Positions 17,210-36,920 of a stretch of 61,995 bases of DNA are shown here, one piece after another. The translations under genes and the position numbers were made by a program. Numbering within the stretch: the first letter of the stretch is position 1; each line of letters starts with the position of its first letter. The notes beneath the pieces were generated by a model that was not told where the DNA came from, ran no database searches, and saw nothing but the letters and a program-made list of their open reading frames with translations. The stretch is from Actinomycetes bacterium (GTDB lineage Bacteria > Actinomycetota > Acidimicrobiia > Acidimicrobiales > RAAP-2): NCBI GenBank assembly GCA_021827705.1, contig JAKAUQ010000017.1, forward strand, positions 1-61,995. Reading direction: 5' to 3'.

Positions 17210-18610
<1,401 letters not shown>

Positions 18611-18638
18611 GGTCCGAGGCGAGTGGAGGACCCTCAAC

Positions 18639-18983
18639 ATGCCGATGCGCGAGGAGTGCAAGCACTTCCAGAGCCGCACCTACGCCTCGGGTGAGGTGGC
18701 GCGCTTCTGTGTGCTGGGCAATGCTCCCGACCAGCCCTGGTCGTGCCCCGAAGACTGCGTGACCTACGAGCGGCGCCTCGCCGACGTGGGGTGGACCCAC
18801 GGCACCCTGGTGAGCCGTCCCGTCGAGCCCGTGCCCGAGGGCAGCTCCGTCGATGAGCGACGTTCCGTGCTGGCCGAGGCCGATGGGATCATCGAGCAGG
18901 TGGCCCCGCGCCTCGACGAGGAGCGACAGCGCGACCTCGAGCGACAGGCGCGTGGTTGGCGCTTCTGGCGCCGGCGCCCATGA
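18639..18983 (+). CDS. Small four-cysteine protein between sufB and sufD
   Basis: A 114-residue protein I cannot assign to a named family. Cysteines at 7, 24, 36 and 40 ('REECKHF', 'ARFCVLG', 'SCPEDCVTYE') could bind zinc or an Fe-S cluster; the rest is acidic helix ending in a basic 'GWRFWRRRP' tail. It lies 28 bp downstream of sufB with the same orientation and an upstream GGAGG (about 18623), so it is co-expressed with SufB. Its place in the Fe-S island suggests an accessory role such as cluster carrier or sensor, which is inference from context. Confidence 0.65.
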   Translation: MPMREECKHFQSRTYASGEVARFCVLGNAPDQPWSCPEDCVTYERRLADVGWTHGTLVSRPVEPVPEGSSVDERRSVLAEADGIIEQVAPRLDEERQRDLERQARGWRFWRRRP

Positions 18984-18984
18984 C

Positions 18985-19812: not shown

Positions 19813-19893
19813 CGCTGCCTCCTTCCCGATCGAGCCTACGCACCCGTCGGCCTGGTGGCCGGGGGACCGCCAGTACACTGACTAAGCCCCGCT

Positions 19894-21120
19894 ATGGTTC
19901 CGTTCTCCGAGAGTGTCCGCGACTACGTGCGCGCCCAACCCGATGCCGCGGGACGCCTGGCCGCCCTGGAGCGCTTCGGCGCCCTCGGCCTGCCCACGGC
20001 CAGCGAGGAGGTCTGGCGCTACGCCCCCCTCGACGCATTCGACCTGGAGCGCTACGTGCTGGCCACCGCGGCGCCGACCACCCTGGCGACCTCGCTCGCT
20101 GACGCGCTCGCGTCGGTGGCGGCCACCACGATCCGCCTCGGCGACGGCTTCGTGCTCGATGGCGGGCGCCCGGTGCCGGGCGTGGACGTCTCCTGGCTCC
20201 CGGCCCCCGTGGGCCCGGACCTCGACTTCTACGCCAGTGATGCCTTCTCCCTGCTCAACGCGGCGGTGACTCCCGGCGTGACCACGATCACGGTGCGATC
20301 GGGTGTCGAGGTTCTCGGGCCCCTGGTGATCGCCTGCGCCGCGGGCGCGACCGCCTCGTTCCCGCGGGTGCACGTCGTCGTGGAGCCGGGGGCCCGCGCA
20401 GTCGTGATCGAGGCCTACGAGGGCGGACACGAGTCCCTCGTCGACATGGTGGGTGAGTACGACATCGGCGCCGGCGCCGCCTTGACGTTGGTGGCGTACC
20501 AGCGGCTGGACCACTCGGCGTGGCACATCGCGCGCACGACGGCCCGGCTCGATCGCGATGCCCGCCTGAACCACGCCGTGGTGGGTTTGGGCGCACGCTA
20601 CGACCGAAGCCGCAACGATGCCGTGATGCTGGGCTCGGGCGCCGAGAATGTACTGCGCACGACGTTCTTCGGGTCGGGCGACCAGGTCCACGACTTTCGC
20701 ACCCGCCAGTACCACGTCGCCGCGCGAACCCGCTCGACCCTCCTGTCCAAGGGCGCGGTGGCCGATGAGGCCCGATCGGTGTACACCGGCCTGATCGAGA
20801 TCGAGCACGGTGCGCGGCGCACCGACGCCCGCCAGACGAACCACAACCTGCTGCTGTCGCCGCAGGCGCACGCCGACAGTGTTCCCAACCTCGAGATCCG
20901 CGAGAACGACGTGGTGTGCGCCCACGCCTCCAGCGTCGGCCCCCTCGACGAGATCCAGCGCTGGTACCTGGAGTCCCGGGGCGTGCCGCGACGCGAGGCG
21001 CAGAGGCTGATGATTCGTGGCTTCTTCTTGGAGATGCTCGACGCCCTGCCGCCGGCTGTGGCCGAGCTCCTGACGCGGGACGTGGACGCGGCGCTCGGCG
21101 CGCTGGAGGTGGCCGGGTGA
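19894..21120 (+). CDS. sufD: Fe-S cluster assembly protein SufD
   Basis: A 408-residue SufD. 'SEEVWRYAPLDAFDLERY' (about 38-55) is the N-terminal helix region; the beta-helix core contains 'VGEYDIGAGAALTLVAYQ', 'FFGSGDQVHDFRTRQYH' and 'HGARRTDARQTNHNLLLSPQ', with 'PNLEIRENDVVCAHASSVG' holding the conserved Cys-x-His that faces SufB, and 'GFFLEMLDALP' at the C-terminus. It is the partner of SufB in the SufBC2D scaffold. TACACT (19874-19879) lies 14 nt upstream, no ribosome site is evident. Its stop overlaps the Rieske gene start (GTGA). Confidence 0.95.
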   Translation: MVPFSESVRDYVRAQPDAAGRLAALERFGALGLPTASEEVWRYAPLDAFDLERYVLATAAPTTLATSLADALASVAATTIRLGDGFVLDGGRPVPGVDVSWLPAPVGPDLDFYASDAFSLLNAAVTPGVTTITVRSGVEVLGPLVIACAAGATASFPRVHVVVEPGARAVVIEAYEGGHESLVDMVGEYDIGAGAALTLVAYQRLDHSAWHIARTTARLDRDARLNHAVVGLGARYDRSRNDAVMLGSGAENVLRTTFFGSGDQVHDFRTRQYHVAARTRSTLLSKGAVADEARSVYTGLIEIEHGARRTDARQTNHNLLLSPQAHADSVPNLEIRENDVVCAHASSVGPLDEIQRWYLESRGVPRREAQRLMIRGFFLEMLDALPPAVAELLTRDVDAALGALEVAG

Positions 21121-21431
21121 GTGTGGTCGATGCCGGGGCGCTGGACGACTTCACCAGCGGCGGCACCCGCCAAGTGACCCTCGAGGGTCACGTAGTCGTC
21201 GTGGTGCGCATCGGAGACGACGTCTACGTCCTCGACGATCGCTGCAGCCACGAGGACTTCAGCCTGGCGCGCGGCGAGGTGGACGAGGAGTGCGCCACCA
21301 TCGAGTGCGCCCGTCACGGTGCGCAGTTCTCGCTGGCTGACGGGGCCGCACTGACGCTGCCGGCGACCCGTCCCGTGCATCGCTACGAGGCGGTCGTCCG
21401 CGACGGCCGCGTGGAAGTGAGCCTGGCGTGA
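21117..21431 (+). CDS. Rieske-type [2Fe-2S] ferredoxin in the suf operon
   Basis: A 104-residue soluble Rieske domain of the NirD/biphenyl-dioxygenase-ferredoxin type. Ligands are C43-x-H45 in 'DDRCSHEDF' and C64-x2-H67 in 'IECARHGAQF'. There is no membrane anchor or disulfide cysteine pair, unlike cytochrome bc1 Rieske proteins, so it is a cytoplasmic electron carrier. The GTG start overlaps the sufD stop and its own stop overlaps the sufC1 start, so it is translated as part of the sufD-sufC unit. It probably supplies electrons to cluster assembly or is a client; similar placement occurs in some actinobacterial suf operons. Confidence 0.85.
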   Translation: MSVVDAGALDDFTSGGTRQVTLEGHVVVVVRIGDDVYVLDDRCSHEDFSLARGEVDEECATIECARHGAQFSLADGAALTLPATRPVHRYEAVVRDGRVEVSLA

Positions 21432-22159
21432 GCGTGTTGACGATCCAGGGCTTGCGGGTGGCCGTGGGGGGTCGCGAGGTCGTGCGCGGTCTCGACCTGA
21501 CCATGCGCTCGGGTGAGGTCCACGTCATCATGGGGCCGAACGGCTCGGGCAAGTCCACGCTGGCCCACGCGCTAGCGGGCCATCCCGGCTACCACGTCAC
21601 GGGGGGCACTGCGGAGATCGACGGCGTCTCGCTGCTGGACCTGTCGCCGACGGACCGGGTCCGCCGTGGACTGTTCCTGGCCCTCCAGCAGCCCATCGAG
21701 GTGCCGGGCGTGCGGCTGGCCGACGTCCTGCGTGCCGCCGGCGTCGAGCCTCGCGGGCTCGACGCCAGGATCCGGGCTGAGGCCGAGCGCATCGGACTGC
21801 GGCCGGACCTGCTCGGCCGGTTCATGAACGTGGACCTCTCGGGAGGCGAGCGCAAGCGGGCCGAGGTCGTCCAGTTCGCCCTGCTGCGTCCGGCCTTCGC
21901 TCTGTTCGACGAGGTGGACTCGGGCCTTGACGTCGACGCGCTGGGTGCTGTGGCCCGACGCCTGGCCGCGTCCTCGCAGGAGTGGGGTTGCGGGGTGCTG
22001 GTGATCACCCACTTTGCGCGCCTGCTCCACGACCTCACGCCGACGGCGATCCACGTGGTGCGCGGCGGCCAGGTCGTGACCACGGGTGGCCCCGAACTGG
22101 CGGCAGTGCTCGAGCGCGAGGGCTACGAACCCTTCGGCGTGCCGGCATCTGACGCCTAG
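21428..22159 (+). CDS. sufC: Fe-S assembly ATPase SufC, first copy
   Basis: A 243-residue ABC ATPase without membrane partner. Walker A 'MGPNGSGKST' (about 35-44), signature 'LSGGERKRAEV' and Walker B 'FALFDEVDSGLDVDAL' are all SufC-like, including the R-K-R after the signature and the 'DSGLD' D-loop; the switch His is in 'VITHFARLL'. SufC powers conformational change of the SufBD scaffold. It overlaps the Rieske gene by 4 bp. A second complete sufC is at 25292-26050 on the other strand; the two differ throughout, so this is old paralogy and not a recent duplication. Confidence 0.93.
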   Translation: MSVLTIQGLRVAVGGREVVRGLDLTMRSGEVHVIMGPNGSGKSTLAHALAGHPGYHVTGGTAEIDGVSLLDLSPTDRVRRGLFLALQQPIEVPGVRLADVLRAAGVEPRGLDARIRAEAERIGLRPDLLGRFMNVDLSGGERKRAEVVQFALLRPAFALFDEVDSGLDVDALGAVARRLAASSQEWGCGVLVITHFARLLHDLTPTAIHVVRGGQVVTTGGPELAAVLEREGYEPFGVPASDA

Positions 22160-22168
22160 AGGCACGGG

Positions 22169-22174
22169 TAGGAT
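22169..22174 (+). promoter_or_regulatory. -10 element TAGGAT, leaderless start of LCP gene
   Basis: TAGGAT, then TGCACG, then ATG 22181. Confidence 0.55.
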
Positions 22175-22180
22175 TGCACG

Positions 22181-23533
22181 ATGCCTGACGGACGTCACAG
22201 CGCGGCGCGCGGACGCGACGGCCGGGCTGGTCGGCACCATCGACCCCTGGCCAACGGGGACCGGCTCGAGGAGCTGGGCACGCAGATCGAGCACAGCGCC
22301 CATCCCGAGCGCGTCGTGCGGACCCGACGGCCGCGCGCGCGGCGCACCCGGCGCCGCGCCGTCCGCGTGACGCTGATCGTCGGCATCACCCTGGTCGGGC
22401 TGGTGGTGGCGCTGGTCGGGGGGGGCTACCTCTACGCCCGCTACCGCTTCGGGCAGATCCCCAAGATCAACGTCGCGGGTGAGTTGCCCCAGATCTCGGG
22501 CAAGCCCTTCAATATCCTCGAGGTCGGCTCGGACTCCCGGGTGGGCCTGACCGGGCAGGTGGCCCGCCAGACCGGGGCGTCGGCGGGGCTGGTCAGCGGC
22601 CAGCGCAGCGACGTGGTCAAGATCATGCACATCGACCCCGCGGCCGGGACCATCGCGATCGTGTCGATCCCGCGCGACACCATGGTCACGCTGCTGGCGA
22701 ACCAGCGCCTCTACGGTCAGTTCAACCGGATCAACGTCAACTACGCCGACGGCCCCTCCCTGCTGGCCCAGACGATCACGGCCAACTTCGGCATCCCGAT
22801 CAACCACGTCATCCAGGTGAGCTTCGCGGGACTGATCAACGCGGCCGACGCCATCGGCGGCGTGTACCTGGACTTCCCGTATCCCGCCAAGGACGCCTAC
22901 TCCGGCCTCAAGATTCCTCACGCCGGCTGCCAACTGGTGACCGGGTTCCAGGCACTGGCCGTCGCGCGGAGCCGCCACTACCAGTGGCTCCAGGGCGGGG
23001 TGTGGCACTACGACCCCACCAGCGACTTCGGGCGGATCGATCGCCAGAACGTGTTCATCCGGGCGCTGATCAGTCGGGCCAAGCACCTGTACAACCCGTT
23101 GACGATCAACTCGTTCCTGTCCAAGATCCCCCAGGGCATCACCCTGGACAGCAGATTCACCCTGAACGAGCTGATCGGCCTGGCCGTCAAGTTCCACGGC
23201 TACAACCCGGCCAACATGCTGACCTACACACTGCCCACCGTGCCGGCAACGGTCCCGGGCCTGGGTGACGTGCTCTTCGCTCAGGAGCCCCAAGCCCAGC
23301 AGCTGCTGGTGCAGGTCTTCGGATCGTCCCTGCTGACGCCCACCAACCCGCCGCCGAACCAGCAACTGCAGACGCCGCTGCCGCCCAAGATCGCGCCCAC
23401 CACGACCACCACGACCCTTGCCCCCACCTCGACCACCGCCGCCAGGACGACGACCTCGACGGTCCGGCCCACGACAGCGGTCAACCCCACCACGGCGGTG
23501 CCGTACTTCGACCCGGTGCCCTGCAGCCCCTGA
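22181..23533 (+). CDS. LytR-CpsA-Psr (LCP) family glycopolymer transferase
   Basis: A 450-residue membrane-anchored protein: basic cytoplasmic tail (1-60), one membrane helix (about 62-84), an LCP domain (about 100-330) and a Thr/Pro-rich tail (about 390-440). 'LEVGSDSRVGL' carries the first conserved Asp/Arg, 'QRSDVVKIMHIDP' the R-S-D motif, 'VSIPRDTMV' the pyrophosphate-binding Arg-Asp and 'NRINVNYADG' and 'RSRHYQW' later conserved blocks. LCP enzymes attach teichoic acid, arabinogalactan or capsule to peptidoglycan from polyprenyl-pyrophosphate. It sits between the two suf arms without functional link. Confidence 0.9.
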   Translation: MPDGRHSAARGRDGRAGRHHRPLANGDRLEELGTQIEHSAHPERVVRTRRPRARRTRRRAVRVTLIVGITLVGLVVALVGGGYLYARYRFGQIPKINVAGELPQISGKPFNILEVGSDSRVGLTGQVARQTGASAGLVSGQRSDVVKIMHIDPAAGTIAIVSIPRDTMVTLLANQRLYGQFNRINVNYADGPSLLAQTITANFGIPINHVIQVSFAGLINAADAIGGVYLDFPYPAKDAYSGLKIPHAGCQLVTGFQALAVARSRHYQWLQGGVWHYDPTSDFGRIDRQNVFIRALISRAKHLYNPLTINSFLSKIPQGITLDSRFTLNELIGLAVKFHGYNPANMLTYTLPTVPATVPGLGDVLFAQEPQAQQLLVQVFGSSLLTPTNPPPNQQLQTPLPPKIAPTTTTTTLAPTSTTAARTTTSTVRPTTAVNPTTAVPYFDPVPCSP

Positions 23534-23592
23534 GGCCGGCTTCGGCGTGGGGAGCACGAGGGACCGACCCGCACCTCGCCGGGGCGCGCTCG

Positions 23593-24057
23593 CTAGGGCG
23601 TAGCCTCGTCGAGGGCCTGGGCCAGGGTGTTCCAGGCCAAGGTGGCGCACTTGATGCGCACGGGGAACTTCACGACGCCGGCCAGGGCCGCCAGTTCGCC
23701 GTCGGAGCGCAGGTCGGGCGCCGGCGCCGGAGCCGGAGCGCCTTCGGCACCGTCCTCGTGGAGTGTCATCATCGCCTTGAACCGCTCGATGACGTGGCGC
23801 ACGTCCTCGATGCGCTTGCCCTTGACCGCCGCGCTCATCATCGACGAGGAGGCCTGGGAGATCGAGCAACCGTGTCCGGTCAGCTTGATGTCCTCGAGCA
23901 CGCCGTCGCGCACCACCAGGTAGACCACCAGCTCGTCGCCGCACAGGGGGTTGAACCCCTCGGTGCGCGACGTGGCCCCGTCGAGCTCCCCGCGGTTGCG
24001 CGGCGAGCGGTAGTGGTCGAGGATGATCTCCCGGTAGAGGTCGTCCAGATTGGCCAT
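23593..24057 (-). CDS. sufU: SufU-type Fe-S assembly sulfur acceptor
   Basis: A 154-residue IscU-fold protein. Three cysteines at 39 ('NPLCGDE'), 64 ('GHGCSISQASSS') and 137 ('RIKCATLAW') plus Asp41 are the SufU zinc/cluster ligands. The residue spacing between the second and third Cys is enlarged by an insertion that includes the Ala/Pro repeat 'EGAPAPAPAPDL' (about 105-115); an insertion at this place distinguishes SufU from IscU. SufU takes persulfide sulfur from SufS through zinc-ligand exchange. It begins 3 bp after the sufS stop, as last gene of sufC2-sufS-sufU. Confidence 0.93.
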   Translation of the reverse strand: MANLDDLYREIILDHYRSPRNRGELDGATSRTEGFNPLCGDELVVYLVVRDGVLEDIKLTGHGCSISQASSSMMSAAVKGKRIEDVRHVIERFKAMMTLHEDGAEGAPAPAPAPDLRSDGELAALAGVVKFPVRIKCATLAWNTLAQALDEATP

Positions 24058-24059
24058 GG

Positions 24060-25295
24060 CTACCCGAACAGCTTGATCGCGGCAACCAGGGCCTCGACCA
24101 GGACATCGAGGTCACTGCGCACGGAGTAGGGGCCGAGGGAGGCGCGGGCCGTCGCCGCGAGCCCGAAACGACGCATCAGCGGCTTGGCGCAGTGGTGGCC
24201 CGGCCGCACGCACACGCCGAACTGGTCCAGGACCTGCGCCACGTCGTGGGGGTGGACACCCTCGACGTCCAGGCTGAACACGCCGCCCCGGTCGACGACG
24301 TCGGCGGGGCCGATCACCCGGACGCGGTCGCCCACCGTGGACGCCAGCAGCTCCAGGGTCTGCTCGGTCAACTCGTGCTCGTAGCGGCTGACCTCGCCGA
24401 GCCCCAGGCTGGCCAGGTACCGGACGGCCGCGCGCAGGCCGGCGGCCTCCGCGATGGGTGGCGTGCCCGCCTCGAAGCGTGTGGGTCCGTGCGCCGGGAC
24501 GAAACCGTCGGTGCGCACGTCGGCGATCATGCCCCCACCGCCGAGGAAGGGCGGCATCGCCTCGAGCAGGTCGGCCCGTGCCCAGAAGATCCCCAGTCCC
24601 GTGGGGCCGAGCATCTTGTGAGCCGAGAAGCACACGAAGTCGGCGTCCCACGCACCAACGTCGGTGGGCTGGTGCCCCACCGACTGGGCGGCGTCGACCG
24701 CGGCCCGAGCACCGTGCGCGTGGGCCGCCGCGACCAGCTCAGCGACGGGATTGCGCGTGCCCAGCACGTTGGACATGGCGGTGAACGAGAACAGCTTGAC
24801 GCCCGCGAGCAGCTGGTCCAGGTCACGGAGATCCAGGCGGTAGTCGTCGCGCACCGGGACGAAGCGCACCTCGATGCCGTGGGTGGCCTGGAGCTGGAAC
24901 CACGGGACGATGTTGGCGTGGTGCTCCATCTCGGTGACCAGGACGACGTCGCCGGGACGGAGGGTGGCGGCGCCCCACGAGCGGGCCAGCAGGTTAAAGG
25001 ACTCGGTGGTGTTCTTGGTGAAGACGATCTCGTGGTGCGGGTCGGGGGCTCCGATGAAGTGACCCACGTCGAGGCGGGCCCCCTCGTAGATGTCAGTCGC
25101 CTCGTTGGCCGTCTGATACACGCCGCGGTGCACGTTGGCGTGGTGGCCGCTGTAGTAGTGATCCATGGCCTCGATCACGGGGCGCGGTGGCAGGGTGGAG
25201 GAGGCCGAGTCCAGATAGACGATCGGACGGTCATTGATCACGCGAGAGAAGATGGGCGTGTCGGCGCGCACGCGCCGCGGGTCGAAGGAGCTCAT
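24060..25295 (-). CDS. sufS: Cysteine desulfurase SufS (group II)
   Basis: A 411-residue PLP enzyme. 'YLDSASSTLPP' (27-37), 'FTKNTTESFNLLA', 'EMEHHANIVPW', the PLP lysine in 'CFSAHKMLGPTG' (K227) and the persulfide cysteine in 'RPGHHCAKPLM' (C369) are all present; the short loop around C369 marks group II SufS enzymes that need SufU. It converts cysteine to alanine and hands sulfur to SufU. Its ATG overlaps the sufC2 stop (ATGA), which also shows that the open frame upstream to 25313 is not used. Confidence 0.96.
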   Translation of the reverse strand: MSSFDPRRVRADTPIFSRVINDRPIVYLDSASSTLPPRPVIEAMDHYYSGHHANVHRGVYQTANEATDIYEGARLDVGHFIGAPDPHHEIVFTKNTTESFNLLARSWGAATLRPGDVVLVTEMEHHANIVPWFQLQATHGIEVRFVPVRDDYRLDLRDLDQLLAGVKLFSFTAMSNVLGTRNPVAELVAAAHAHGARAAVDAAQSVGHQPTDVGAWDADFVCFSAHKMLGPTGLGIFWARADLLEAMPPFLGGGGMIADVRTDGFVPAHGPTRFEAGTPPIAEAAGLRAAVRYLASLGLGEVSRYEHELTEQTLELLASTVGDRVRVIGPADVVDRGGVFSLDVEGVHPHDVAQVLDQFGVCVRPGHHCAKPLMRRFGLAATARASLGPYSVRSDLDVLVEALVAAIKLFG

Positions 25296-26050
25296 CGAAC
25301 CGCCACCCGCCACGCGTCGTAGCCGTCGCGCTCAATGACCGCCGCCAGCTCGGGCCCGCCGGACTCCACGATGCGACCGTCGATCAAGATGTGCACGCGG
25401 TCGGGCTCGATCTCCTCGAGGAGCTTGACGTAGTGGGTGACGATCACGACCCCCATGGACGGACGTCGCTCGCGCACGGTGCGCACGCCGCGGGCCACGA
25501 CGCGCAAGGCGTCGATGTCGAGTCCCGAGTCGGTCTCGTCCAAGAGCGCGACCACGGGGTCGAGCAGCGCCATCTGGAGGACCTCGTTGCGCTTGCGCTC
25601 CCCACCGCTGAAGCCCTCGTTGAGGTGCCGCTCGGCGAAGGCGGGGTCCATGCTGAGGCGCTCCATCCACTCCATCAGCTCGAGGCGCACCTCGAGAACG
25701 GAGAGCTGCTCCACGCCGCGGCGTGCCAGCATTGCCTGGCGCAGGAACTGGATGACCGAGACGCCGCTGATGGACTCGGGATACTGGAAGGCGAGGAACA
25801 GCCCCGCGCGCGCCCGCGCGTCGGGCGGCCACGAGGAGATGTCCTGATCGGCCAGGAGGATCTGACCGGCGTTCAGGTGGTAGCCCGGATGGCCCATGAC
25901 GGCGTTGGCCAGGGTGGACTTGCCCGCGCCGTTCGGTCCCATCAGGGCGTGGATTTCTCCGGCGTCCACGCTCAAGTCGACGCCGCGCAGAATCGGCGTT
26001 CCTTCGGCATCGACGTGCACATCGCGTATCTCAAGAAGCCTCTCGGGCAC
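25292..26050 (-). CDS. sufC: Fe-S assembly ATPase SufC, second copy
   Basis: A 252-residue SufC. Walker A 'MGPNGAGKST' (about 37-46), Q-loop 'FLAFQYPESISGVSV', signature 'FSGGERKRNEVLQM' and Walker B 'VALLDETDSGLDIDAL' match SufC closely; the Q-loop 'FQYP' form is the canonical one, whereas the first copy has 'LQQP'. It heads the minus-strand unit sufC2-sufS-sufU with ATGA overlap into sufS. TAGGCT lies 6 nt before the GTG start. This copy is the better match to canonical SufC. Confidence 0.95.
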   Translation of the reverse strand: MPERLLEIRDVHVDAEGTPILRGVDLSVDAGEIHALMGPNGAGKSTLANAVMGHPGYHLNAGQILLADQDISSWPPDARARAGLFLAFQYPESISGVSVIQFLRQAMLARRGVEQLSVLEVRLELMEWMERLSMDPAFAERHLNEGFSGGERKRNEVLQMALLDPVVALLDETDSGLDIDALRVVARGVRTVRERRPSMGVVIVTHYVKLLEEIEPDRVHILIDGRIVESGGPELAAVIERDGYDAWRVAVR

Positions 26051-28106: not shown

Positions 28107-28154
28107 CGCCGCGTGTCGGCCCGGTACGACGAGTCGCTGGGGCAGAATGGGAGC

Positions 28155-28613
28155 GTGCAGATTCCCGCGAAGGCCGAGTACGCCATCCGCGCGCTGCTGA
28201 CGCTCGCGGGCAGCGCGACGTCGGTGAGCGCCGAGCACCTGGCGGCCGAGCAGGAGCTGCCTGCGAAATTCTTGGGCGCCATCCTCTCGGACCTGCGCCG
28301 CGGCGGCCTGGTGACGAGCCAGCGCGGTCCCGAAGGGGGGTTCCGCCTGGCCCGCGACCCCGACGAGATCTGCATCGCCGACGTCCTGCGGGTGGTCACC
28401 GGTCCCATGGCCGGGGTGCGGGGCATGCGGCCCGAGACGCTCAGCTACGGCGGTGAGGCCACGTACTTGCGCGACGTCTGGGTGGCCGTGCGCGCAGCCC
28501 TGCGCGAGGTCCTCGAGCACGTCAGCGTTGGTCAGATCCTGCGCGGAGAGCTCCCCGAGTCCGTGACGCGCTTCACCCGCGACCCCGACGCGTGGGTCAC
28601 CCGCCACCGATGA
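28155..28613 (+). CDS. Rrf2-family transcriptional regulator without Fe-S cysteines
   Basis: A 152-residue Rrf2 protein: winged helix at 1-75 ('KAEYAIRALLTLAG', 'LPAKFLGAILSDLRRGGLV', wing 'GPEGGFRLARDP'), then the dimerisation helix ('YLRDVWVAVRAALREVL'). IscR and NsrR hold a cluster through three Cys between the wing and this helix; here that segment ('MAGVRGMRPETLSYGGEATY') has none, and the sole Cys is in 'DEICIADVL'. It is thus more like CymR or a sensor of another signal. GTG 28155 follows CAGAAT by 6 nt. It is co-transcribed with rnhA (ATGA overlap). Target genes are unknown; the suf promoters 2-11 kb upstream are candidates. Confidence 0.85.
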   Translation: MQIPAKAEYAIRALLTLAGSATSVSAEHLAAEQELPAKFLGAILSDLRRGGLVTSQRGPEGGFRLARDPDEICIADVLRVVTGPMAGVRGMRPETLSYGGEATYLRDVWVAVRAALREVLEHVSVGQILRGELPESVTRFTRDPDAWVTRHR

Positions 28614-29065
28614 CCACGGCCTATACCGACGGTGCCTGCCGGGGAAACCCCGGGCCCGGGGGCTGGGCCTGGGCGGTCTCGGCGGACCTCTACGCCAGCG
28701 GCGCCGAGGTCCACACCACCAACCAGCGCATGGAGCTGCGTGCCGTGCTGGAGGCGCTGGGCGCGCTCGGCACCCGGGACGTGGAGATCGTCAGCGACTC
28801 GTCCTACGTGGTGAAGTGTTTTCACGATCGCTGGTACGTGGGGTGGCAGCGCCGGGGCTGGCGCAATTCCCAGGGACGGCCCGTGGCCAACCGTGATCTG
28901 TGGGAGCCCCTGGTCGACCAGGTGGTCGGCGCACGCGGGACCATCCGGTTCCGCTGGGTGAAGGGTCACGCTGGCGATCCCATGAATGAACTGGTCGACG
29001 CCCTCGCCACGACCGCGGCCGACCGCCAGGTCGGGGCGATGCGCCCGCCGATCTTTCCGGGCTAA
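28610..29065 (+). CDS. rnhA: Ribonuclease HI
   Basis: A 151-residue RNase HI. The four catalytic carboxylates are D7 ('TDGACRGNPGPGGW'), E42 ('NQRMELRAVLEAL'), D63 ('SDSSYVV') and D130 ('NELVDALA'), with the conserved His in 'WVKGHAG' (H120). It degrades RNA in RNA-DNA hybrids. The basic handle 'FHDRWYVGWQRRGWRNSQG' is present, as in E. coli. The ATG overlaps the Rrf2 stop, so the pair is translationally coupled. Confidence 0.95.
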   Translation: MTTAYTDGACRGNPGPGGWAWAVSADLYASGAEVHTTNQRMELRAVLEALGALGTRDVEIVSDSSYVVKCFHDRWYVGWQRRGWRNSQGRPVANRDLWEPLVDQVVGARGTIRFRWVKGHAGDPMNELVDALATTAADRQVGAMRPPIFPG

Positions 29066-29069
29066 ACAT

Positions 29070-29075
29070 TAGGAT
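29070..29075 (+). promoter_or_regulatory. -10 element TAGGAT for lpd-E2-lipBA
   Basis: TAGGAT lies 38 nt before the lpd GTG. Unlike the leaderless genes, a leader of about 30 nt with AAGGGGA precedes the start codon. Confidence 0.4.
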
Positions 29076-29112
29076 TCTTCTTCGACAGTGGTGCGAGCGA
29101 AGGGGACACATC

Positions 29113-30534
29113 GTGGCCGACGAGGTCCAAGAGTTTGACGTCGTGATCATCGGCGGCGGGCCGGGTGGCTACGCCGCCGCCCTCTACGGAGCCGCCGCGG
29201 GGCTCCACATCGCGATGATCGAGCGGGACAAGGTCGGCGGGACGTGCCTGCACCGTGGGTGCGTCCCGGCCAAGGAGTTCCTCGAGACCGCCCACGTGCG
29301 CCGGACCCTCGAGCACGCGGGGGCCTTCGGCTTCGCCGTGGAGGGCCTCAGCACCGACTTCGCGGTCAGCCAAAAGCGCAAGGGCGAGGTGGTCGACAAG
29401 TTGCACAAGGGCTTGAGCGGGCTGCTCAAGGGCCGCAAGGTGACGATCTTCGAGGGGACGGGACGCCTCGAGGCTGACCGCGTGGTGCGCATCGTCGACG
29501 GGACCGATGCCGGCGTGGTGTGCCGGGGGCGCGACGTGATCCTGGCGGCGGGCTCGGTTCCCCGCACGCTGCCCGGGTTCGACCTGGATGGCACCTTCGT
29601 CTTGACCTCGGACGAGTTCTTGGACCTGTCGAGCCTTCCGGCGTCGGCGGTGGTGATCGGCGGCGGCGCCATCGGTTGCGAGTTCGCCTCGATGCTGGCC
29701 GACATGGGCACGACGGTGACCATCCTGGAGGGCCTGCCCACGATCCTCGCGGGCTGTGACAGCGAGGTCGTCAGCGTCGTCCAGCGCGTCTTCAAGAAGC
29801 GCGGCATCGAGGTGCGCACCGCCGTGAACGTGACCGGGCACACGCCGGTTGCGGGCGCCACCACCACCCGTGTCCACGTCGAGGGTGGCGATGACGTCGA
29901 GGTGGAGGCCGTGATCCTGGCGGTCGGCCGTCGCCCGCGCAGCGAGGGGCTGCTCGGCGAGGGGACGGGGGTTGAGGTCAACGATCGGGGCTTCGTGGTG
30001 GCGGACCCGGTCATGCGCACCGCCAATCCCCACGTGTACGCGATCGGCGACATCGTGGCCAACACGCCCCAGCTGGCGCACGTGGGCTTCGCTGAGGCGA
30101 TCGTGGCCATCAAGTCGATCCTGGGCGAGGCGGCCACGCCCGTCGACTACGACCGTGTGCCCTGGGCGATCTACTCCAATCCAGAGGTGGCGTTCTGCGG
30201 GCTGACCGAGGCCGCAGCCAAGGAGCGCGGCTACGAGGTCGTCGTCAAGAAGGATCCCTTCGGCGGCAACAGCCGGGCCCAGATCATCGGCGAGACCGAT
30301 GGCGTGGTCAAGATCATTGCCGAGAAGCGTCCCGACGGCTCGGCTGGCCAGATCCTCGGCGTGCACATGGCCGGCCCGTGGGTGACCGAGCAGCTCGGCG
30401 CCGGCTACTACGCCGTCAACTGGGAGGCCACCGCCGAGGAGGCCGCCAGCCTCATCCAGCCGCACCCGTCCCTGTCGGAAACCTTTGGCGAGACCCTGCT
30501 GGCACTGTCGGGGAGGGGGCTCCACCTTGGCTGA
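29113..30534 (+). CDS. lpdA: Dihydrolipoyl dehydrogenase (E3)
   Basis: A 473-residue flavoprotein disulfide reductase. 'VIIGGGPGGYAAAL' (11-24) binds FAD, 'GGTCLHRGCVPAK' (43-55) has the redox pair C45/C50, 'VVIGGGAIGCEFASM' binds NAD, 'YAIGDIVANTPQLAHVG' is the second FAD motif and 'IQPHPSLSETFGE' at the end carries the catalytic His-Glu of the partner subunit. It reoxidises dihydrolipoyl groups of 2-oxoacid dehydrogenases or the glycine cleavage system. It overlaps the E2 gene by 8 bp, implying that it serves that complex; no E1 is in the window. Confidence 0.96.
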   Translation: MADEVQEFDVVIIGGGPGGYAAALYGAAAGLHIAMIERDKVGGTCLHRGCVPAKEFLETAHVRRTLEHAGAFGFAVEGLSTDFAVSQKRKGEVVDKLHKGLSGLLKGRKVTIFEGTGRLEADRVVRIVDGTDAGVVCRGRDVILAAGSVPRTLPGFDLDGTFVLTSDEFLDLSSLPASAVVIGGGAIGCEFASMLADMGTTVTILEGLPTILAGCDSEVVSVVQRVFKKRGIEVRTAVNVTGHTPVAGATTTRVHVEGGDDVEVEAVILAVGRRPRSEGLLGEGTGVEVNDRGFVVADPVMRTANPHVYAIGDIVANTPQLAHVGFAEAIVAIKSILGEAATPVDYDRVPWAIYSNPEVAFCGLTEAAAKERGYEVVVKKDPFGGNSRAQIIGETDGVVKIIAEKRPDGSAGQILGVHMAGPWVTEQLGAGYYAVNWEATAEEAASLIQPHPSLSETFGETLLALSGRGLHLG

Positions 30535-31771
30535 CGTGACGCTGCCGTCCCTCGGCGAGTCGGTGACCGAGGGGATCATCACCCGGTGGTTCAAGAGCGT
30601 GGGCGACCAGGTCGCGCGCGACGAGCCGCTGTTCGAGATCTCCACCGACAAGGTGGACTCCGAGATGCCCTCGCCGGCCGCGGGCGTCCTGACCGAGATC
30701 CTGGCCCAGGAGGGCGACACCGTTGAGACGGGGTCTCGTGTCGCTGTGATCGACGAAGGCGCCACGGCGGCGCCCACGGCGAGCGTGGCCGCCCCGGTCG
30801 TGCCCACCACCCCGGCCCCGCCGACTCCTCCACCCGTGGCCGCCCCCACCACGCCGACGGAAGCCCCCGCACCCGACGGGCCGGCCTCCCGCGCGCCCGC
30901 GCCGGTGCCCCCCGCACCGGTGGTCTCCGAGCGACCGGGGCTGGTGACGTCGCCCGTCGTGCGCCGCATCCTCACCGATGGCGGGGTGGACCCCGCGACC
31001 GTTCGCGGGTCGGGCCCCGGCGGCGCGATCACCCGCCGTGACGCCGAGCGCGCCGTGGCCAACGGCCCGACCGACGACCTCGTGGTGCCGCTGTCGAACG
31101 GGCTGCGCCGGATGGGCCAGCACATGGCACTCTCCGCCCAGACCACGCCGCACGGCTTCGTGGCCATTGAGGTGGACGGCACCGTGTTTGCCGACCTCGA
31201 CCGTCGAGGTCGCGTCACGCGTGACGGGGTGCCCATCACCGACGAGATGGTCGTGGGCCTGGCGGCCGTGCGGGCGCTTGGCGAGTTCGAGTTCCTCAAC
31301 GCGACCTTTGCGGGTGACGAGCTCGTGGTGCATCGCACCGTCAACCTGGGGTACATGCGCGAGGTGCACCGTGACGGGATGCTCGTCCCCGTTGTGCACG
31401 CCGCGGCGGGCCTGACGCTGCGCGCCCTGGCCCGGCGTCTCCATGAGCTAGGCGAGCGCGTCGAGTCACGGCAGCTGACGAGTGACGACCTGCTGGGCGG
31501 AACCTTCACGTTCGTGGGTCCCACCGGGTCGCGAGCCCTCTGGAGCGCACCGATCATCATCCAACCCCAGGTGGCCGTTGTCTCGATGGGTGCCGTGCGC
31601 CAGGTGCCCGTGGTGCGCGAGGTGGACGGCGTGCCCCGCGTCGAGGTCGGGTCGCAGGTCATCCTGGGACTCTCCTTCGATCATCGCGTCTGCGAGCCCT
31701 TCACCGCGACGGCGTACCTCGAGCGCGTGGGTGAGCTCCTGGCGGGTCTGGATCTCGAGAGCGAGCGCTAG
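30527..31771 (+). CDS. 2-oxoacid dehydrogenase E2 (dihydrolipoyl acyltransferase)
   Basis: A 414-residue E2 with a lipoyl domain (1-78, lipoyl-Lys in 'EISTDKVDSEMPSP', K42), an Ala/Pro linker (about 80-135), a peripheral subunit-binding domain ('TSPVVRRILTDGGVD', about 140-178) and a catalytic domain (about 185-410). The start is the TTG at 30527, 7 nt after GGGAGGGGG and inside the lpd 3' end. The active-site motif usually reads D-H-R-V-x-D-G, with His and Asp; here it is 'FDHRVCEP', so the Asp is Glu and the Gly is Pro. Whether the enzyme transfers succinyl, acetyl or branched acyl groups cannot be read. lipBA starts directly at its stop codon. Confidence 0.9.
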   Translation: MADVTLPSLGESVTEGIITRWFKSVGDQVARDEPLFEISTDKVDSEMPSPAAGVLTEILAQEGDTVETGSRVAVIDEGATAAPTASVAAPVVPTTPAPPTPPPVAAPTTPTEAPAPDGPASRAPAPVPPAPVVSERPGLVTSPVVRRILTDGGVDPATVRGSGPGGAITRRDAERAVANGPTDDLVVPLSNGLRRMGQHMALSAQTTPHGFVAIEVDGTVFADLDRRGRVTRDGVPITDEMVVGLAAVRALGEFEFLNATFAGDELVVHRTVNLGYMREVHRDGMLVPVVHAAAGLTLRALARRLHELGERVESRQLTSDDLLGGTFTFVGPTGSRALWSAPIIIQPQVAVVSMGAVRQVPVVREVDGVPRVEVGSQVILGLSFDHRVCEPFTATAYLERVGELLAGLDLESER

Positions 31772-33403
31772 GTGCTGCGGCGGCGTCACCTGGGTCGCGT
31801 CAGCTTTCGGGAGGTCAACGACCTGCAGCGGGCGCTGCTGGAGTCGGCGGACGACTACGTCCTGGTGATGCAGCACCCTCCCACGTACACGCTCGGCGTT
31901 CGCGCCGTGCCCGAGCACTTCTTGGTCCCGGTCGACTCCCTCGCGGCCGACGTCGTCGAGGCCGATCGTGGAGGCGATGTCACCTACCACGGCCCCGGCC
32001 AGATCGTCGCGTGGGCCATCGTGACCGTGGGCGACGATCCCGGCTCGGGACGCGCTCACGTGTACCGGCTCGAGGATGCGGTGATCGAGACGGTTCGGCA
32101 CTTCGATCCCGAGGGGCGCCTGGGGGCCGTCGAGCGTCTCGAGGGCTATCCCGGCGTGTGGGCGCACGTGGAGAGCCGTCCGGCCAAGGTGGCGGCGGTG
32201 GGAGTGCGCACCGAGCGCAACCGCGCCGGCCAGCGCCGGACCCTGCACGGCGTCGCGCTGAACGTGGACGTGGACCTGGCCGCCTTTGGCGCCATCGTGC
32301 CCTGCGGCATCCCTGACAAGCCCGTGGCGTCGATGCGCTCGCTCGGCCTCGACGCCGAACTGGCCGACGTCGAGGCGTACCTCGGTGCAGCCCTGGCGGC
32401 GCGCCTGGGCGGCGGTGAGGTGCACGTGGCGTCCGTGGATCGGGCGCTGGCGGTACCGACGGCCGAGCCAGCGTCTCTGCGACGGCTGCGCCGGGCGGGA
32501 GTGGACCCCGATGACGGTGTCGACCTGCACGCGCGCAAGCCCGCCTGGATGCGGGTCGAGGCGGACATGGGAGCGGGCTTTCGCTCGATGCGGCGGCTCA
32601 ACGAGGATCTACGCCTGGTCACGGTGTGCGAGGAGGCGGGCTGCCCCAACATCTTCGAGTGCTGGGAGGCCGGGACCGCGACGTTCATGGTCAACGGCGA
32701 GCGCTGCACGCGCGCGTGCACGTTCTGCCTCGTCGACACCAGCAAGCCGCTGCCCCTCGACCCGACCGAGCCGGCCCGCGTGGCCGAGGCGGTGGTCCGC
32801 CTGGGCCTGCGCCACGCGGTCGTCACCTGTGTGGCGCGCGATGACCTGGCCGACGGCGGTGCGGGCGCGATCGCCGCGACGATCCGGGCGATCCGTGACC
32901 GCGCGCCTGAGACCAGCGTCGAGGTCCTGATCAGCGACCTCCGCGGGGACGTCGGATCCCTGCAGTTGATCCTCGATGCCCGACCCGACGTCGTGAATCA
33001 CAACATCGAAACGGTGGCCCGGCTGCAGCGGGCGGTCCGACCCAGTGCTGGCTACGCCCGCTCCCTGACCGTGCTGGCCCGCGCCGGCGCGGCGGGCCTG
33101 ACAACCAAGTCGGGGCTCATGGTGGGTCTCGGCGAATCGGTCGACGAGGTCGAAGAGACTCTGGCCGACCTGGCCGCGGTGGGCGTGTCGATCGCCACGA
33201 TCGGGCAGTACGTTCGGCCCACGCGGGCTCACTCGCCCGTGATGCGCTGGTGGGAGCCCGAGGAGTTCGCCGACCTCGCCGCGCGCGGTCAGCGCCTGGG
33301 TCTGGCCCACGTACAGGCCTCGCCCCTCACGCGTTCGAGCTACCACGCGGGTGAGGCGCTGGCCGAGGCTCGCCCCGTGGTGATCCGCGCCGGCGCTCGC
33401 TGA
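31772..33403 (+). CDS. lipBA: LipB-LipA fusion: octanoyltransferase and lipoyl synthase in one chain
   Basis: One uninterrupted 543-codon frame. Residues 1-215 are octanoyl-ACP:protein transferase: 'GDVTYHGPGQIVAW' (69-82), Lys139 in 'PAKVAAVGVR' and the thioester Cys178 in 'VPCGIPDKPV'. After a linker (about 215-258), residues 258-540 are the radical-SAM lipoyl synthase: auxiliary-cluster cysteines C286, C291 and C297 ('VCEEAGCPNIFECW'), radical-SAM CX3CX2C at C312, C316 and C319 ('CTRACTFC'), and the C-terminal Ser in 'TRSSYHAGE' that ligates the auxiliary cluster. The chain would octanoylate a lipoyl domain and then insert the sulfurs. It abuts the E2 gene, its likely substrate. The usual arrangement is two genes. 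Confidence 0.93.
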   Translation: MLRRRHLGRVSFREVNDLQRALLESADDYVLVMQHPPTYTLGVRAVPEHFLVPVDSLAADVVEADRGGDVTYHGPGQIVAWAIVTVGDDPGSGRAHVYRLEDAVIETVRHFDPEGRLGAVERLEGYPGVWAHVESRPAKVAAVGVRTERNRAGQRRTLHGVALNVDVDLAAFGAIVPCGIPDKPVASMRSLGLDAELADVEAYLGAALAARLGGGEVHVASVDRALAVPTAEPASLRRLRRAGVDPDDGVDLHARKPAWMRVEADMGAGFRSMRRLNEDLRLVTVCEEAGCPNIFECWEAGTATFMVNGERCTRACTFCLVDTSKPLPLDPTEPARVAEAVVRLGLRHAVVTCVARDDLADGGAGAIAATIRAIRDRAPETSVEVLISDLRGDVGSLQLILDARPDVVNHNIETVARLQRAVRPSAGYARSLTVLARAGAAGLTTKSGLMVGLGESVDEVEETLADLAAVGVSIATIGQYVRPTRAHSPVMRWWEPEEFADLAARGQRLGLAHVQASPLTRSSYHAGEALAEARPVVIRAGAR

Positions 33404-33428: not shown

Positions 33429-36400
33429 TCAGGCGACGAAGTACTTGGCCAGGGGGTGGTGGCACACGATGGCGTCGGTGGTCTGCTCGGGGTGCAACTG
33501 AAATCCCTCGGACACCGTGACACCGATGCGCCCGGCGTCGAGCAGGGCGACCACCTTGGCGTTGTCGGACAAGTCGGGACAGGCTGGATAGCCCCACGAG
33601 TAGCGCCCTCCGCGGTACTGCTGGCGGAACAGCCCCGTTAGCGTCGGGCCGTCCTGACTGGCGAACCCGAGTTCCTCACGGATCCGTCGGTGCCACATCT
33701 CGGCCAGGGCCTCAGCCATCTCGACCCCGAGCCCGTGCACGAGGAGGTACTCCCTGTAGCGATTGGCCTCGAACAGCTCGCGGGTGCGCTGGGACACCCG
33801 TGGTCCCATGGTCACCAGCATGAAGCTGGCGTAGTCATGGTCGGGGCTGGTGGTGGGCCGGAAGAAGTCGGCGATGCACAGGTGCGGGTCGGCGCTCTGA
33901 CGCGGGAAGGTGAAGCGCACCTGCTCGGCGGAGCGCTGCTCGTCACGGTAGATCACCAGGTCGTTGCCCTCCGAGGCGGCTGGGAAGTGTCCCCAAACCA
34001 CCTGGGGCACCAGCAGGTCGTCCTGCTTGGCCAGGGCCAGCTGCTCGCGCAGCACGGCGCGGATGCGGTCCTTGAAGGCGCCGTCATCCTCACCGTCCTT
34101 GGGGCGGAAGCCCCACTGATTGCGGAAGAGCGCGGTCAGGTTGAGGTAGTCGCTGATCTCGTCCAGGCTCATGCCCTTGGCGACACGCGAGCCGACGAAA
34201 GGCGGAGGGAACAGTGGCGTGTTCGCGGGAACCGAGGAACTGCGCACCGGGGGAGTCTCAGCGGTTCGAGTCGAGCGCCGGTGCACGGCGCGGGTGGAGA
34301 TCTCGCGACCGAAGGTGTCGTCGTCTTCGCCGCTGCGGCGCAGCTCACCCAGGCGGTCCAGCACGCGCAGGCCCTCGAAGGCGTCCTTGCCGTAGAAGAC
34401 ACGTCCCTCGTAGACCTGGCGCAGGTCACGCTCCACGTACGTCCGCGTCAGGGCGGCTCCGCCGAGCAGGACGGGGACGCCGGCCAGCCCCCGCTGGTTC
34501 ATCTCCTCCAGGTTCTCGCGCATGATCAGGGTGGACTTCACCAGCAGGCCACTCATGCCCAGGGCGTCGGCGTGGTGCTCGGCCACGGCTGCCAGCATCT
34601 CGTTCACGCCGACCTTGATGCCCAGGTTGATGACCTCGTAGCCGTTGTTGGTCAAGATGATGTCGACCAGGTTCTTGCCGATGTCGTGGACGTCACCTTT
34701 GACCGTGGCCAGGACGATGCGTCCACGGCCGGCCTGATCGCCGCGCTCGAGGTGGGGCTCGAGGTGGGCCACGGCCGCCTTCATCGTCTCGGCGCTCTGC
34801 AAGACGAAGGGCAGCTGCATCTCGCCCGACGCGAACAGGTCGCCCACCTCGCGCATCCCGTCGAGCAGGATGTCGTTGATGATGGTGAGGGCGCTCGTCC
34901 CGGCCGCCAGCATCTCGTCGAGGTCGTCCGTCAGTCCCGTACGAGCCCCGTCGATGATGCGGCGTCGCAAGCGCTGGTCCCGGGAGAGCCCCGCGTACTC
35001 GTCGACCGCGCTGGTCACGGTGGTCGTGTTCGCGAAGCGGGCGAGGAGCTCGGTGAGGGGGTCGTAGTCGGCTCGGCGGCGGTCGTAGATGAGGTCGAGG
35101 CAGATCTGGCGGACCTCGTCGTCGATCTTGGCCAGCGGCAGGATCTTGGAGGCGTGCACGATGGCCGCATCGAGCCCCGCCGCCTGGCACTCGTGCAAGA
35201 AGACGCTGTTGAGGGCCTGACGGGCCGCCGGCGCCAGGCCGAAGGAGATGTTGGACAGCCCCAGGATCGTGCGCACGCCGGGCAGCTGTTCGCGGATCAG
35301 GCTGATCGCCTCGATGGTCTCGCGCCCGTCGCGTCGGGAGTCCTCCATGCCCGTTGACAGGGGCAGGGCCAGGGGGTCGATGAAGATGTCGCCACGATCC
35401 AGCCCGTAGCGCTCCTCGGCCAGGGTCACGATGGCGCGGGCGGCGCGCACCTTCCACTCGGCGGTGCGCGCCTGGCCGTCTTGGTCAATGCAGGTCGCCA
35501 CCACGGCCGCGCCGAACTCGCGGGCCAGTGACAGGAACTGGTCGAGGCGGGTTCCGGGACCGTCGCCCTCCTCGAGGTTGACCGAGTTGAGCAGGGCCTT
35601 GCCTCCCAGCCACGTCAGGGCCGCCCGGGCGACCGGTGCCTCGGTGGTGTCCACCATGATGGGCACCGATGACTGGGTGGCCAGCCGACTCATGACCTCG
35701 GTCATGTCGGCCACGCCGTCGGCTCCCGTGTAGTCCACGCAGACGTCCAGGATGTGCGCGCCCTCGCGTATCTGATCGCGGCCGATGGCCACGCAGGTCT
35801 CCCAGTCGCCCGCCAGCATCGCCTCGCGGAACCGCTTCGAGCCATTGGCGTTGGTGCGCTCACCGACCAAGAGGACCGAGCTGTCCTGGTGGTACGGGGT
35901 CGTCGCGTACATGGACGAGACGCCCGGCTCGGGGTCGGGTTGGCGGGCCGCCCGGGGCCGGTCGCGCAGGGCGGCGACCACGTGTGCGAGGTGCTCGGGC
36001 GTCGTTCCGCAGCACCCGCCCACGACCCCGACGCCCAGATCGCCCACGAAGTGGGCGTGGTGCTCGGCCAGCTGTTCGGGGGTCAGGTCGTAGTGCATGC
36101 GTCCATCGACGACCGAGGGCAGACCCGCGTTGGGCAGGCACGACACCGGCCGGGTCGCGGTGGCGGTCAGGTAGCGCAGCGGCTCGTACATCTCGATGGG
36201 TCCCGTCGCGCAGTTGATGCCGACGACGTCGACTCCCATCGCCTCCAGCGAGGTCAAGGCGGCACCGATCTCGGTGCCCGGCAGCATCCGCCCGGTCAGC
36301 TCGATGGTGACCTGGGCCTGGATGGGCACGCGCCGACCGTGGCGGACCATGGCCCGCCGGCACGCGGCGATGGCCGCCTTGCCCGACAGGAGGTCGAACA

Positions 36401-36920
36401 TGGTCTCGACGAGCAGCAGGTCGACTCCCCCTTCGAGCAGGCCGTAGGCGAGCTCCTCATAGGCAGCGCTCAACTCGTCGAAGCCGATCTGCCCGAGGGT
36501 CGGGAACTTGGTTCCCGGACCCATGGACCCGGCGACGAATCGCGGCGCGCCAGGCGCCGCGTACTCGTCGGCGACGCGCCGCGCCAGCTGGGCCGAGGCC
36601 CGCGCCAGCTCGCCGGCACGCTCGGCGATCCCGTACTCGCGCAGCACCGGTGCGAAGGCGCCAAATGAGTTGGTCTCGATCGCCTCGACGCCCACGTCCA
36701 AGAAGGAGCGGTGCAGCGTCTCGATCACGTCGGGACGGGTGAGGGTGAGCACTTCGTTGCACCCCTCGAGTGCTTCCCCGCCGAAGTCGGAGGCGCTCAG
36801 CCCGAGGAGCTGGAGATTGGTTCCCGCGGCCCCATCGAAGACCACGACGTGGTCCGCGATGGCCGCGAGATAGGGGTCCGCGTCCACGGCGCGGAAGGAG
36901 CGGGGCGGCGGCTCAGACAT
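33429..36920 (-). CDS. metH: Cobalamin-dependent methionine synthase MetH
   Basis: A 1163-residue, complete four-module enzyme. The homocysteine domain (about 20-320) begins 'FDGAAGTNLQLLG' and has the zinc cysteines in 'GINCATGP' and 'GGCCGTTP'. The pterin domain (about 345-620) includes 'LVGERTNANGSKRF' and 'DVCVDYTGADG'. The cap (about 650-735) precedes the B12 domain with 'KGDVHDIGKNLVDII' (His about 745). The activation domain (about 930-1160) includes 'YRGGRYSWGYPACPDL' and 'SEGFQLHPEQTTDAIV', which bind AdoMet. It methylates homocysteine using methyl-tetrahydrofolate. The ATG stands 8 nt from TAGCCT. It converges with lipBA. Confidence 0.97.
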   Translation of the reverse strand: MSEPPPRSFRAVDADPYLAAIADHVVVFDGAAGTNLQLLGLSASDFGGEALEGCNEVLTLTRPDVIETLHRSFLDVGVEAIETNSFGAFAPVLREYGIAERAGELARASAQLARRVADEYAAPGAPRFVAGSMGPGTKFPTLGQIGFDELSAAYEELAYGLLEGGVDLLLVETMFDLLSGKAAIAACRRAMVRHGRRVPIQAQVTIELTGRMLPGTEIGAALTSLEAMGVDVVGINCATGPIEMYEPLRYLTATATRPVSCLPNAGLPSVVDGRMHYDLTPEQLAEHHAHFVGDLGVGVVGGCCGTTPEHLAHVVAALRDRPRAARQPDPEPGVSSMYATTPYHQDSSVLLVGERTNANGSKRFREAMLAGDWETCVAIGRDQIREGAHILDVCVDYTGADGVADMTEVMSRLATQSSVPIMVDTTEAPVARAALTWLGGKALLNSVNLEEGDGPGTRLDQFLSLAREFGAAVVATCIDQDGQARTAEWKVRAARAIVTLAEERYGLDRGDIFIDPLALPLSTGMEDSRRDGRETIEAISLIREQLPGVRTILGLSNISFGLAPAARQALNSVFLHECQAAGLDAAIVHASKILPLAKIDDEVRQICLDLIYDRRRADYDPLTELLARFANTTTVTSAVDEYAGLSRDQRLRRRIIDGARTGLTDDLDEMLAAGTSALTIINDILLDGMREVGDLFASGEMQLPFVLQSAETMKAAVAHLEPHLERGDQAGRGRIVLATVKGDVHDIGKNLVDIILTNNGYEVINLGIKVGVNEMLAAVAEHHADALGMSGLLVKSTLIMRENLEEMNQRGLAGVPVLLGGAALTRTYVERDLRQVYEGRVFYGKDAFEGLRVLDRLGELRRSGEDDDTFGREISTRAVHRRSTRTAETPPVRSSSVPANTPLFPPPFVGSRVAKGMSLDEISDYLNLTALFRNQWGFRPKDGEDDGAFKDRIRAVLREQLALAKQDDLLVPQVVWGHFPAASEGNDLVIYRDEQRSAEQVRFTFPRQSADPHLCIADFFRPTTSPDHDYASFMLVTMGPRVSQRTRELFEANRYREYLLVHGLGVEMAEALAEMWHRRIREELGFASQDGPTLTGLFRQQYRGGRYSWGYPACPDLSDNAKVVALLDAGRIGVTVSEGFQLHPEQTTDAIVCHHPLAKYFVA

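Follow-up and report, generated by a model that had tools for sequence, protein, structure and literature searches.

A single-chain LipB–LipA fusion is the rule in a class of Actinomycetota

The window, by which we mean the whole stretch of 61,995 nucleotides analysed here, contains a gene that raises two questions: whether one polypeptide carries out both steps of lipoate assembly, octanoyl transfer by LipB and sulfur insertion by LipA, and what the joining of these enzymes does for the lipoyl domain that passes between them. To our knowledge, the route of the octanoylated lipoyl domain from LipB to the cluster-consuming LipA is not settled. The gene, lipBA, was delimited from the open reading frame list and profile matches at 31772..33403 on the plus strand, with a GTG start and 543 codons plus stop, and the resulting frame of 543 amino acids, for an intact chain estimated from its length at about 59 kDa, has no internal stop. 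An earlier note had read a full octanoyltransferase and a full lipoyl synthase in this single frame, and both curated profiles and invariant catalytic residues bear that reading out.

The LipB (octanoyltransferase) domain occupies residues 1-215 (31772..32416, plus strand). It matches Pfam LplA-B_cat (PF21948) at residues 18-207 with 93.7 bits (cut-off 27) and TIGR00214 (lipB) with 116.1 bits (cut-off 83.55), and falls below the cut-off of the LipB equivalog NF010925 (140 vs 155), which two other fusions, L056 and L081, pass. The LipA (lipoyl synthase) domain occupies residues 232-543 (32465..33400, plus strand), with a Radical_SAM match at residues 310-466 (67.4 bits, cut-off 29.5), a TIGR00510 (lipA) match that reaches the equivalog score (326.8 bits, cut-off 310.25) and a LIAS_N match below cut-off (21.9 vs 27). 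Among solved structures, Mycobacterium tuberculosis LipB matches at about residues 5-214 and M. tuberculosis LipA at about 253-534. In superpositions on the predicted model, M. tuberculosis LipB (1w66) covers residues 1-215 (Z 29.2, rmsd 1.8, 199 aligned), and chain residues 11-305 of M. tuberculosis LipA (5exk) cover residues 232-536 (Z 42.8, rmsd 1.9, 295 aligned), residues 232-252 corresponding to the N-terminal extension of the stand-alone enzyme. The segment that belongs to neither domain is therefore about residues 216-231 (32417..32464, plus strand), a junction whose length is highly variable in the class.

The active-site residues of both families are in place, all encoded on the plus strand. 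In the LipB half, Lys139 (AAG, 32186..32188) is presumably the catalytic lysine and Cys178 (TGC, 32303..32305) the acyl-thioester cysteine, as is usual in the LipB family. The LipA half contains C286-X4-C291-X5-C297 (32627..32662) as ligands of the auxiliary [4Fe-4S] cluster, C312-X3-C316-X2-C319 (32705..32728) for the radical-SAM [4Fe-4S] cluster and the C-terminal motif R521-S522-S523-Y524 (33332..33343). Passages of a preprint (PMC13232139) define the LipA motifs as CX3CX2C, CX4CX5C and R(S/T)S(Y/F), all three of which the window protein contains; the same preprint gives the CX4CX5C triad its auxiliary-cluster role, with S523 as the expected serine ligand. No variation occurs at K139, C178, the six cysteines, S522 or S523 in any of 151 aligned full-length fused sequences (169 sequences minus 19 repeats or window copies, giving 150, plus the window), one row of which, L175, comes from outside the class. 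The residues that the earlier note had picked out from the window alone, Lys139 and Cys178 among them, are right.

Judged from sequence, the gene product is probably a genuine bifunctional lipoate-assembly enzyme serving both steps, a reading to which we assign a probability of roughly 0.87. By family analogy, the LipB half would, with no need for ATP, load octanoyl from octanoyl-ACP onto Cys178 and, aided by Lys139, transfer it to the lipoyl-domain lysine of E2 proteins and GcvH; the LipA half would use two radical-SAM steps and a sacrificial auxiliary Fe–S cluster to add one sulfur each at C6 and C8. Because the octanoylated lipoyl domain is a protein in its own right, it would have to travel between the two active sites.

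The window genome (1.78 Mb, 38 contigs, 97% complete) contains no match to the fusion other than itself in a self search, and the fusion is its sole LplA/LipB-type protein above cut-off, the next place scoring 19.2 vs 27 bits. These self-match and LplA/LipB-type profile searches revealed no lipoate-attachment route in the organism besides the fusion. At least four proteins with a lipoyl-type domain are encoded: the E2-type protein of the window, an E2 on contig C2 beside E1-type genes (one recognised by Pfam, one by reading), an E2 on C19 and GcvH on C18. Since the fusion is the only transferase and synthase found, it would have to serve them all. The proposal that the adjacent E2 is the substrate of the fusion is overstated: this E2 is the nearest candidate, and the other lipoyl-domain proteins are likely substrates too. 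Contig C9 encodes an E1-type protein whose open frame runs to 1202 residues.

The E2-type gene (30527..31771, plus strand; start TTG 30527 or GTG 30536, stop codon 31769-31771) encodes one lipoyl domain, an E3-binding domain and an acyltransferase-fold domain (Pfam Biotin_lipoyl, E3_binding, 2-oxoacid_dh). It is preceded by E3, dihydrolipoyl dehydrogenase (29113..30534, plus strand; TIGR01350 451.2 bits, cut-off 408.8), and the GTG of the fusion stands immediately 3' of the E2 stop codon, as the earlier note had described. Further upstream on the same strand are an Rrf2-family regulator (28113..28613, PF02082) and, between it and E3, an RNase H (28592..29065, PF00075), present in 19/36 and 21/36, respectively, of the loci whose upstream flank extends to 4.9 kb or more. 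All five genes are co-directional from 28113 to 33403, and spacing and conserved order mark E3-E2-lipBA as a putative operon. The window E2 has DHRVCEP in place of the usual DHRxxDG acyltransferase motif and may mainly supply a lipoyl domain; near-relative E2s (read among L031-L053 and L058) show DHRVCEP, DHRVCDP, DHRVADP, DHRITEP and similar, and DHRxxDG is retained in the more distant E2s that were read.

Among fused-group loci whose upstream flank reaches 3.3 kb or more, E2 and E3 are both present in 36/39 and E3 only in three, whereas 17 of the 18 split loci with such a flank have neither and one has E2; these counts leave out 14 fused-group and six split loci with less than 3.3 kb and include the frame-broken locus L058 as fused. 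In the class members L075, L076 and L078, E3 directly precedes the fusion and E2 was undetected upstream. Over the whole flank, an E2-like match lies upstream of eight of the 24 split loci, three of which also have an E3-like match, so the link with E2 probably predates the fusion. As far as these flanks indicate, the E2 neighbourhood is not special to the fusion.

Two other features of the surroundings were observed. SUF-type iron–sulfur genes lie at 17210-26050 on both strands, no more than about 15 kb from the fusion (SufBD-core at 17210 and 19894, a NifU_N scaffold at 23593, a class-V aminotransferase at 24060 and an ABC ATPase at 25292, one of two in the region), and bear on the fusion in that LipA uses up its auxiliary cluster. 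A cobalamin-dependent methionine synthase (33429-36920) lies just downstream on the opposite strand, as it does in 17/36 loci with at least 4.9 kb upstream.

Members of the class normally carry the gene in fused form, and at least one departs from this. Searches with the fusion gave a match in 59/61 genomes (the window genome and 60 relatives) and in 363/395 genomes of a class sample. Both halves were spanned in 150/150 class rows among the matches listed (window included); a re-search of 61 class genomes with two matches found both halves in the same open frame of a single contig in 56, and 76 of 80 further class genomes have both halves in one frame, with about 48 of the 363 matching genomes outside these itemised counts. 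Separate genes in all close relatives would have refuted the earlier note; the relatives carry the fused gene. Sequences fetched for the 18 both-halves rows reporting one stop have no stop from the LipB start to the LipA end (18/18), and 20/20 fetched loci (11 one-stop rows and nine further relatives) have both domains in one frame with no intervening stop. Of six loci also fetched from the 56 two-match genomes, five run uninterrupted, whereas G400 contains an in-frame stop. The one-megabase genomes of family code f47 have one frame in 10/10 loci. In another 32 class genomes re-searched, 21 match, one of them at 19.5 bits only; 12 of the 32 had no earlier match, and of these 11 again gave none and G422 gave the 19.5-bit match, so that these assemblies appear to lack the gene, in a re-search that left out 22 of the 32 no-match genomes of the 395-genome sample.

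A contig scan covered both fused and separate genes. Its best 80 loci, from which L084, L103 and L106 (one half each, at contig ends) were dropped, include 77 with both halves: 52 fused, 24 split and the frame-broken L058 (coverage 1.25 by its record title). Fused loci carry record names such as Acidimicrobiaceae, Acidimicrobiales, Acidimicrobiia, Actinomycetes and Actinobacteria, with one Acidobacteria and one Candidatus Microthrix; we infer their class to be Acidimicrobiia. In the split loci, which include Mycobacterium, Nocardia, Cellulomonas, Sanguibacter and Streptomyces, the two genes are neighbours and at least one stop separates the halves.

Among the class genomes itemised, one real exception is G149 (L258, 2018-2770, minus strand), with a stand-alone lipB of 250 codons beside an unrelated next gene; a LipA match is absent from this assembly, which is 85% complete. 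In G400 (L247), the in-frame stop falls inside the LipB part at about residue 125 of the matched stretch and reflects either error or inactivation. Because of the lone lipB of G149 and the stop of G400, the fusion arrangement is not absolute. The two-match set further contains one genome with the halves in different frames (G265) and four with the halves on different contigs (G242, G282, G333 and G385), and the 80-genome set contains G159 and G250, where LipA meets a contig end, and G270, whose contig ends about 400 bases away from LipB. Other partial or contig-broken cases are G003, G022, G057, G203, G235, G258 and G324.

Outside the class, lipB and lipA are adjacent but separate, in the same order, in 24/24 split actinobacterial loci. 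A phylum search with the fusion gave matches in 320/396 genomes. Among the matches listed, G743, G589 and G692 gave one match over both halves and were rejected as further fusions by stops between the halves. G763, from another class of the phylum, has a LipB–LipA fusion (L175, 5381-6952). Compared with its close relative G742, it lacks about 134 bases comprising the lipB end and the stretch before LipA, a loss that speaks against a one-base error in this one genome; at 19 other loci from the same family (L224-L242), the halves are in different frames or have a stop between them. Given this loss, the G763 fusion is probably recent and independent of that of the class, as read from one genome. 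In a plasmid-collection search all matches were below 60% identity, and the named both-half matches (H2, H5) are two genes.

A quick IQ-TREE inference from 105 concatenated LipB+LipA rows (59 fused, L175 included, and 46 split; SH-aLRT support only, unrooted) was thinned by dropping exact repeats and most same-genus loci and by keeping every second fused row. On this tree two changes account for the fused label: a supported branch sets the 58 class rows apart from the others, and G763 stands by itself. We infer that the fusion arose once at the base of the class from the adjacent lipB–lipA pair of other Actinomycetota, with fusion preferred over fission on the unrooted tree because separate genes are the rule elsewhere.

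AlphaFold2 gave a confident model of the window protein (99-row alignment; pLDDT 94.4, pTM 0.93) and of the class member L056 (pTM 0.89), whose roughly 50 extra linker residues (228-279) have pLDDT under 50. Independently placed domains would be expected to give a clearly lower pTM. In both models, superposed LplA-type chains cover LipB and extend into the same helix of LipA, ending mostly at 434-443 in the window model and 484-493 in the L056 model, with 2p5i (472 and 522) and 3r07 (442 and 522) as exceptions. Since the 50-residue offset equals the linker difference, we read the predicted domain arrangement as the same in the two models. As a reading of pTM and superposition ranges this is indirect, and the models are not independent because their alignments share rows. 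The LipB and LipA halves are predicted to pack in one fixed arrangement despite the disordered linker, and such packing would keep a lipoyl domain docked at one site close to the next. This predicted arrangement is compatible with a hand-over of the domain and is no demonstration of channelling.

It is about an even bet that the enzyme is bifunctional without channelling, the fusion fixing 1:1 synthesis and co-location, the domain diffusing between the sites and the merger persisting because it is harmless. The adjacency of lipB and lipA in the examined relatives outside the class means that one deletion would be enough for fusion, as in G763; the widely variable linker length fits a loose tether, and G149 shows that a free LipB is possible in the class. 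However, the two models give the same confident arrangement with a linker disordered in one of them, and the itemised class genomes hold no other stand-alone gene besides that of G149. True channelling of the octanoylated domain is a possibility that we regard with some doubt. We are a shade more sceptical of the idea that LipB–LipA of the class forms a single docking machine, in which a fixed interface would position both active sites for octanoylation and then sulfuration of one bound lipoyl domain without release and which may have a transient counterpart elsewhere; this seems rather unlikely.

The linker also bears on whether the working enzymes are separate after all, with a free LipA made from an internal start in the linker or by cleavage of the fusion. 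VPCG and KPxW lie 64-162 residues apart in those 125 of the 169 sequences where both patterns could be located. A hidden stop within 32400-32560 had been named as a point to check; the frame is kept across this stretch in 55 close relatives, with third positions most divergent. Mismatch frequencies at codon positions 1, 2 and 3 among these relatives are 0.320, 0.347 and 0.626 for residues 206-254, compared with 0.155, 0.123 and 0.494 for the LipA part, and the contrast is smaller in the narrowest part of the linker, residues 216-233 (0.372, 0.435 and 0.574). By this codon pattern, the linker is translated, weakly constrained sequence. An internal start finds a candidate in V244 of the window, a GTG near the usual start of stand-alone LipA; however, the V244 column has GTG in 32/151 rows and GTC in 74, although GTG is the most frequent valine codon of the LipA part (1587/3614), and at no examined linker column do start codons reach half of the sequences. 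A Shine-Dalgarno-like 4-mer accompanies 7/31 start-type codons at the V244 column, a weak test given that the assumed start of the fusion itself has the 4-mer in only 35/150. With no conserved start in the V244-column codons or the linker columns, an internal LipA start is not supported, and separate working enzymes by either route are improbable.

Domain repurposing is a known phenomenon in general, and one half could be catalytically dead and kept as a docking module only; the invariance of the recognised catalytic residues of both halves in every aligned row, in a genome with no other above-cut-off LipB/LplA-type protein and no second LipA, makes this very improbable. The chance that a sequencing or assembly error hides a stop/start pair is negligible. 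Frame-broken cases do occur in this material (L058 and G265), but recurrence of one open frame over both halves in 282 itemised class rows (150 + 56 + 76, window included, and G400 with its stop inside LipB among them) rules out an artefact.

Three known systems stand closest to the fusion. The separate LipB and LipA of Actinomycetota, exemplified by M. tuberculosis (1w66; 5exi/5exj/5exk), are alike to the respective domains in sequence, fold and catalytic residues, but form a system of two genes and two proteins, whereas in the window a single chain links the two domains through about 16 residues. The family NF053790 (LplA_LipA_fuse, bifunctional lipoate--protein ligase/lipoyl synthase) likewise places an acyl-attaching enzyme of the same superfamily N-terminal to LipA, but this enzyme is the ligase LplA and not the transferase LipB. 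On the window protein, its profile aligns to the LipA half only (profile positions 329-605) and scores 339.1 bits against a cut-off of 800, with 334.5, 367.6 and 356 bits for the fusions L056, L081 and L175. Fused or circularly permuted ligases, Lpl(AB) and Lpl(BA), are also gene fusions in lipoate attachment; they join the catalytic and accessory parts of a ligase, whereas the window fusion joins two pathway steps. The LipB and LipA domains, their chemistry and the gene neighbourhood are ordinary; the fused arrangement is what differs.

Automatic annotation may already label such chains multifunctional. Hassan and Cronan reportedly found in 2011 that LipB and LipA of Escherichia coli copurify with 2-oxoacid dehydrogenases. 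We found no description of a LipB–LipA fusion in the open-licence literature. The main text of a paper on metabolic gene fusions (PMC4921024) contains none of the five lipoate terms looked for. Passages of PMC10332631 survey LipB and LipA through GTDB, discuss ligase fusions and report that Lpl(BA) of one subgroup comes nearly exclusively from Actinomycetota; a LipB–LipA fusion is unmentioned in those passages.

Lipoate attachment in these organisms would hang on a single gene. In this class of mostly uncultured actinobacteria, the apparently old fusion makes a physical partnership of LipB and LipA directly testable, and a natural covalent pair, apparently reached twice, is a ready construct for structures and for a kinetic test of channelling. 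If the docking-machine reading is true, the interface may exist as a transient LipB–LipA complex in bacteria where the two proteins are separate.
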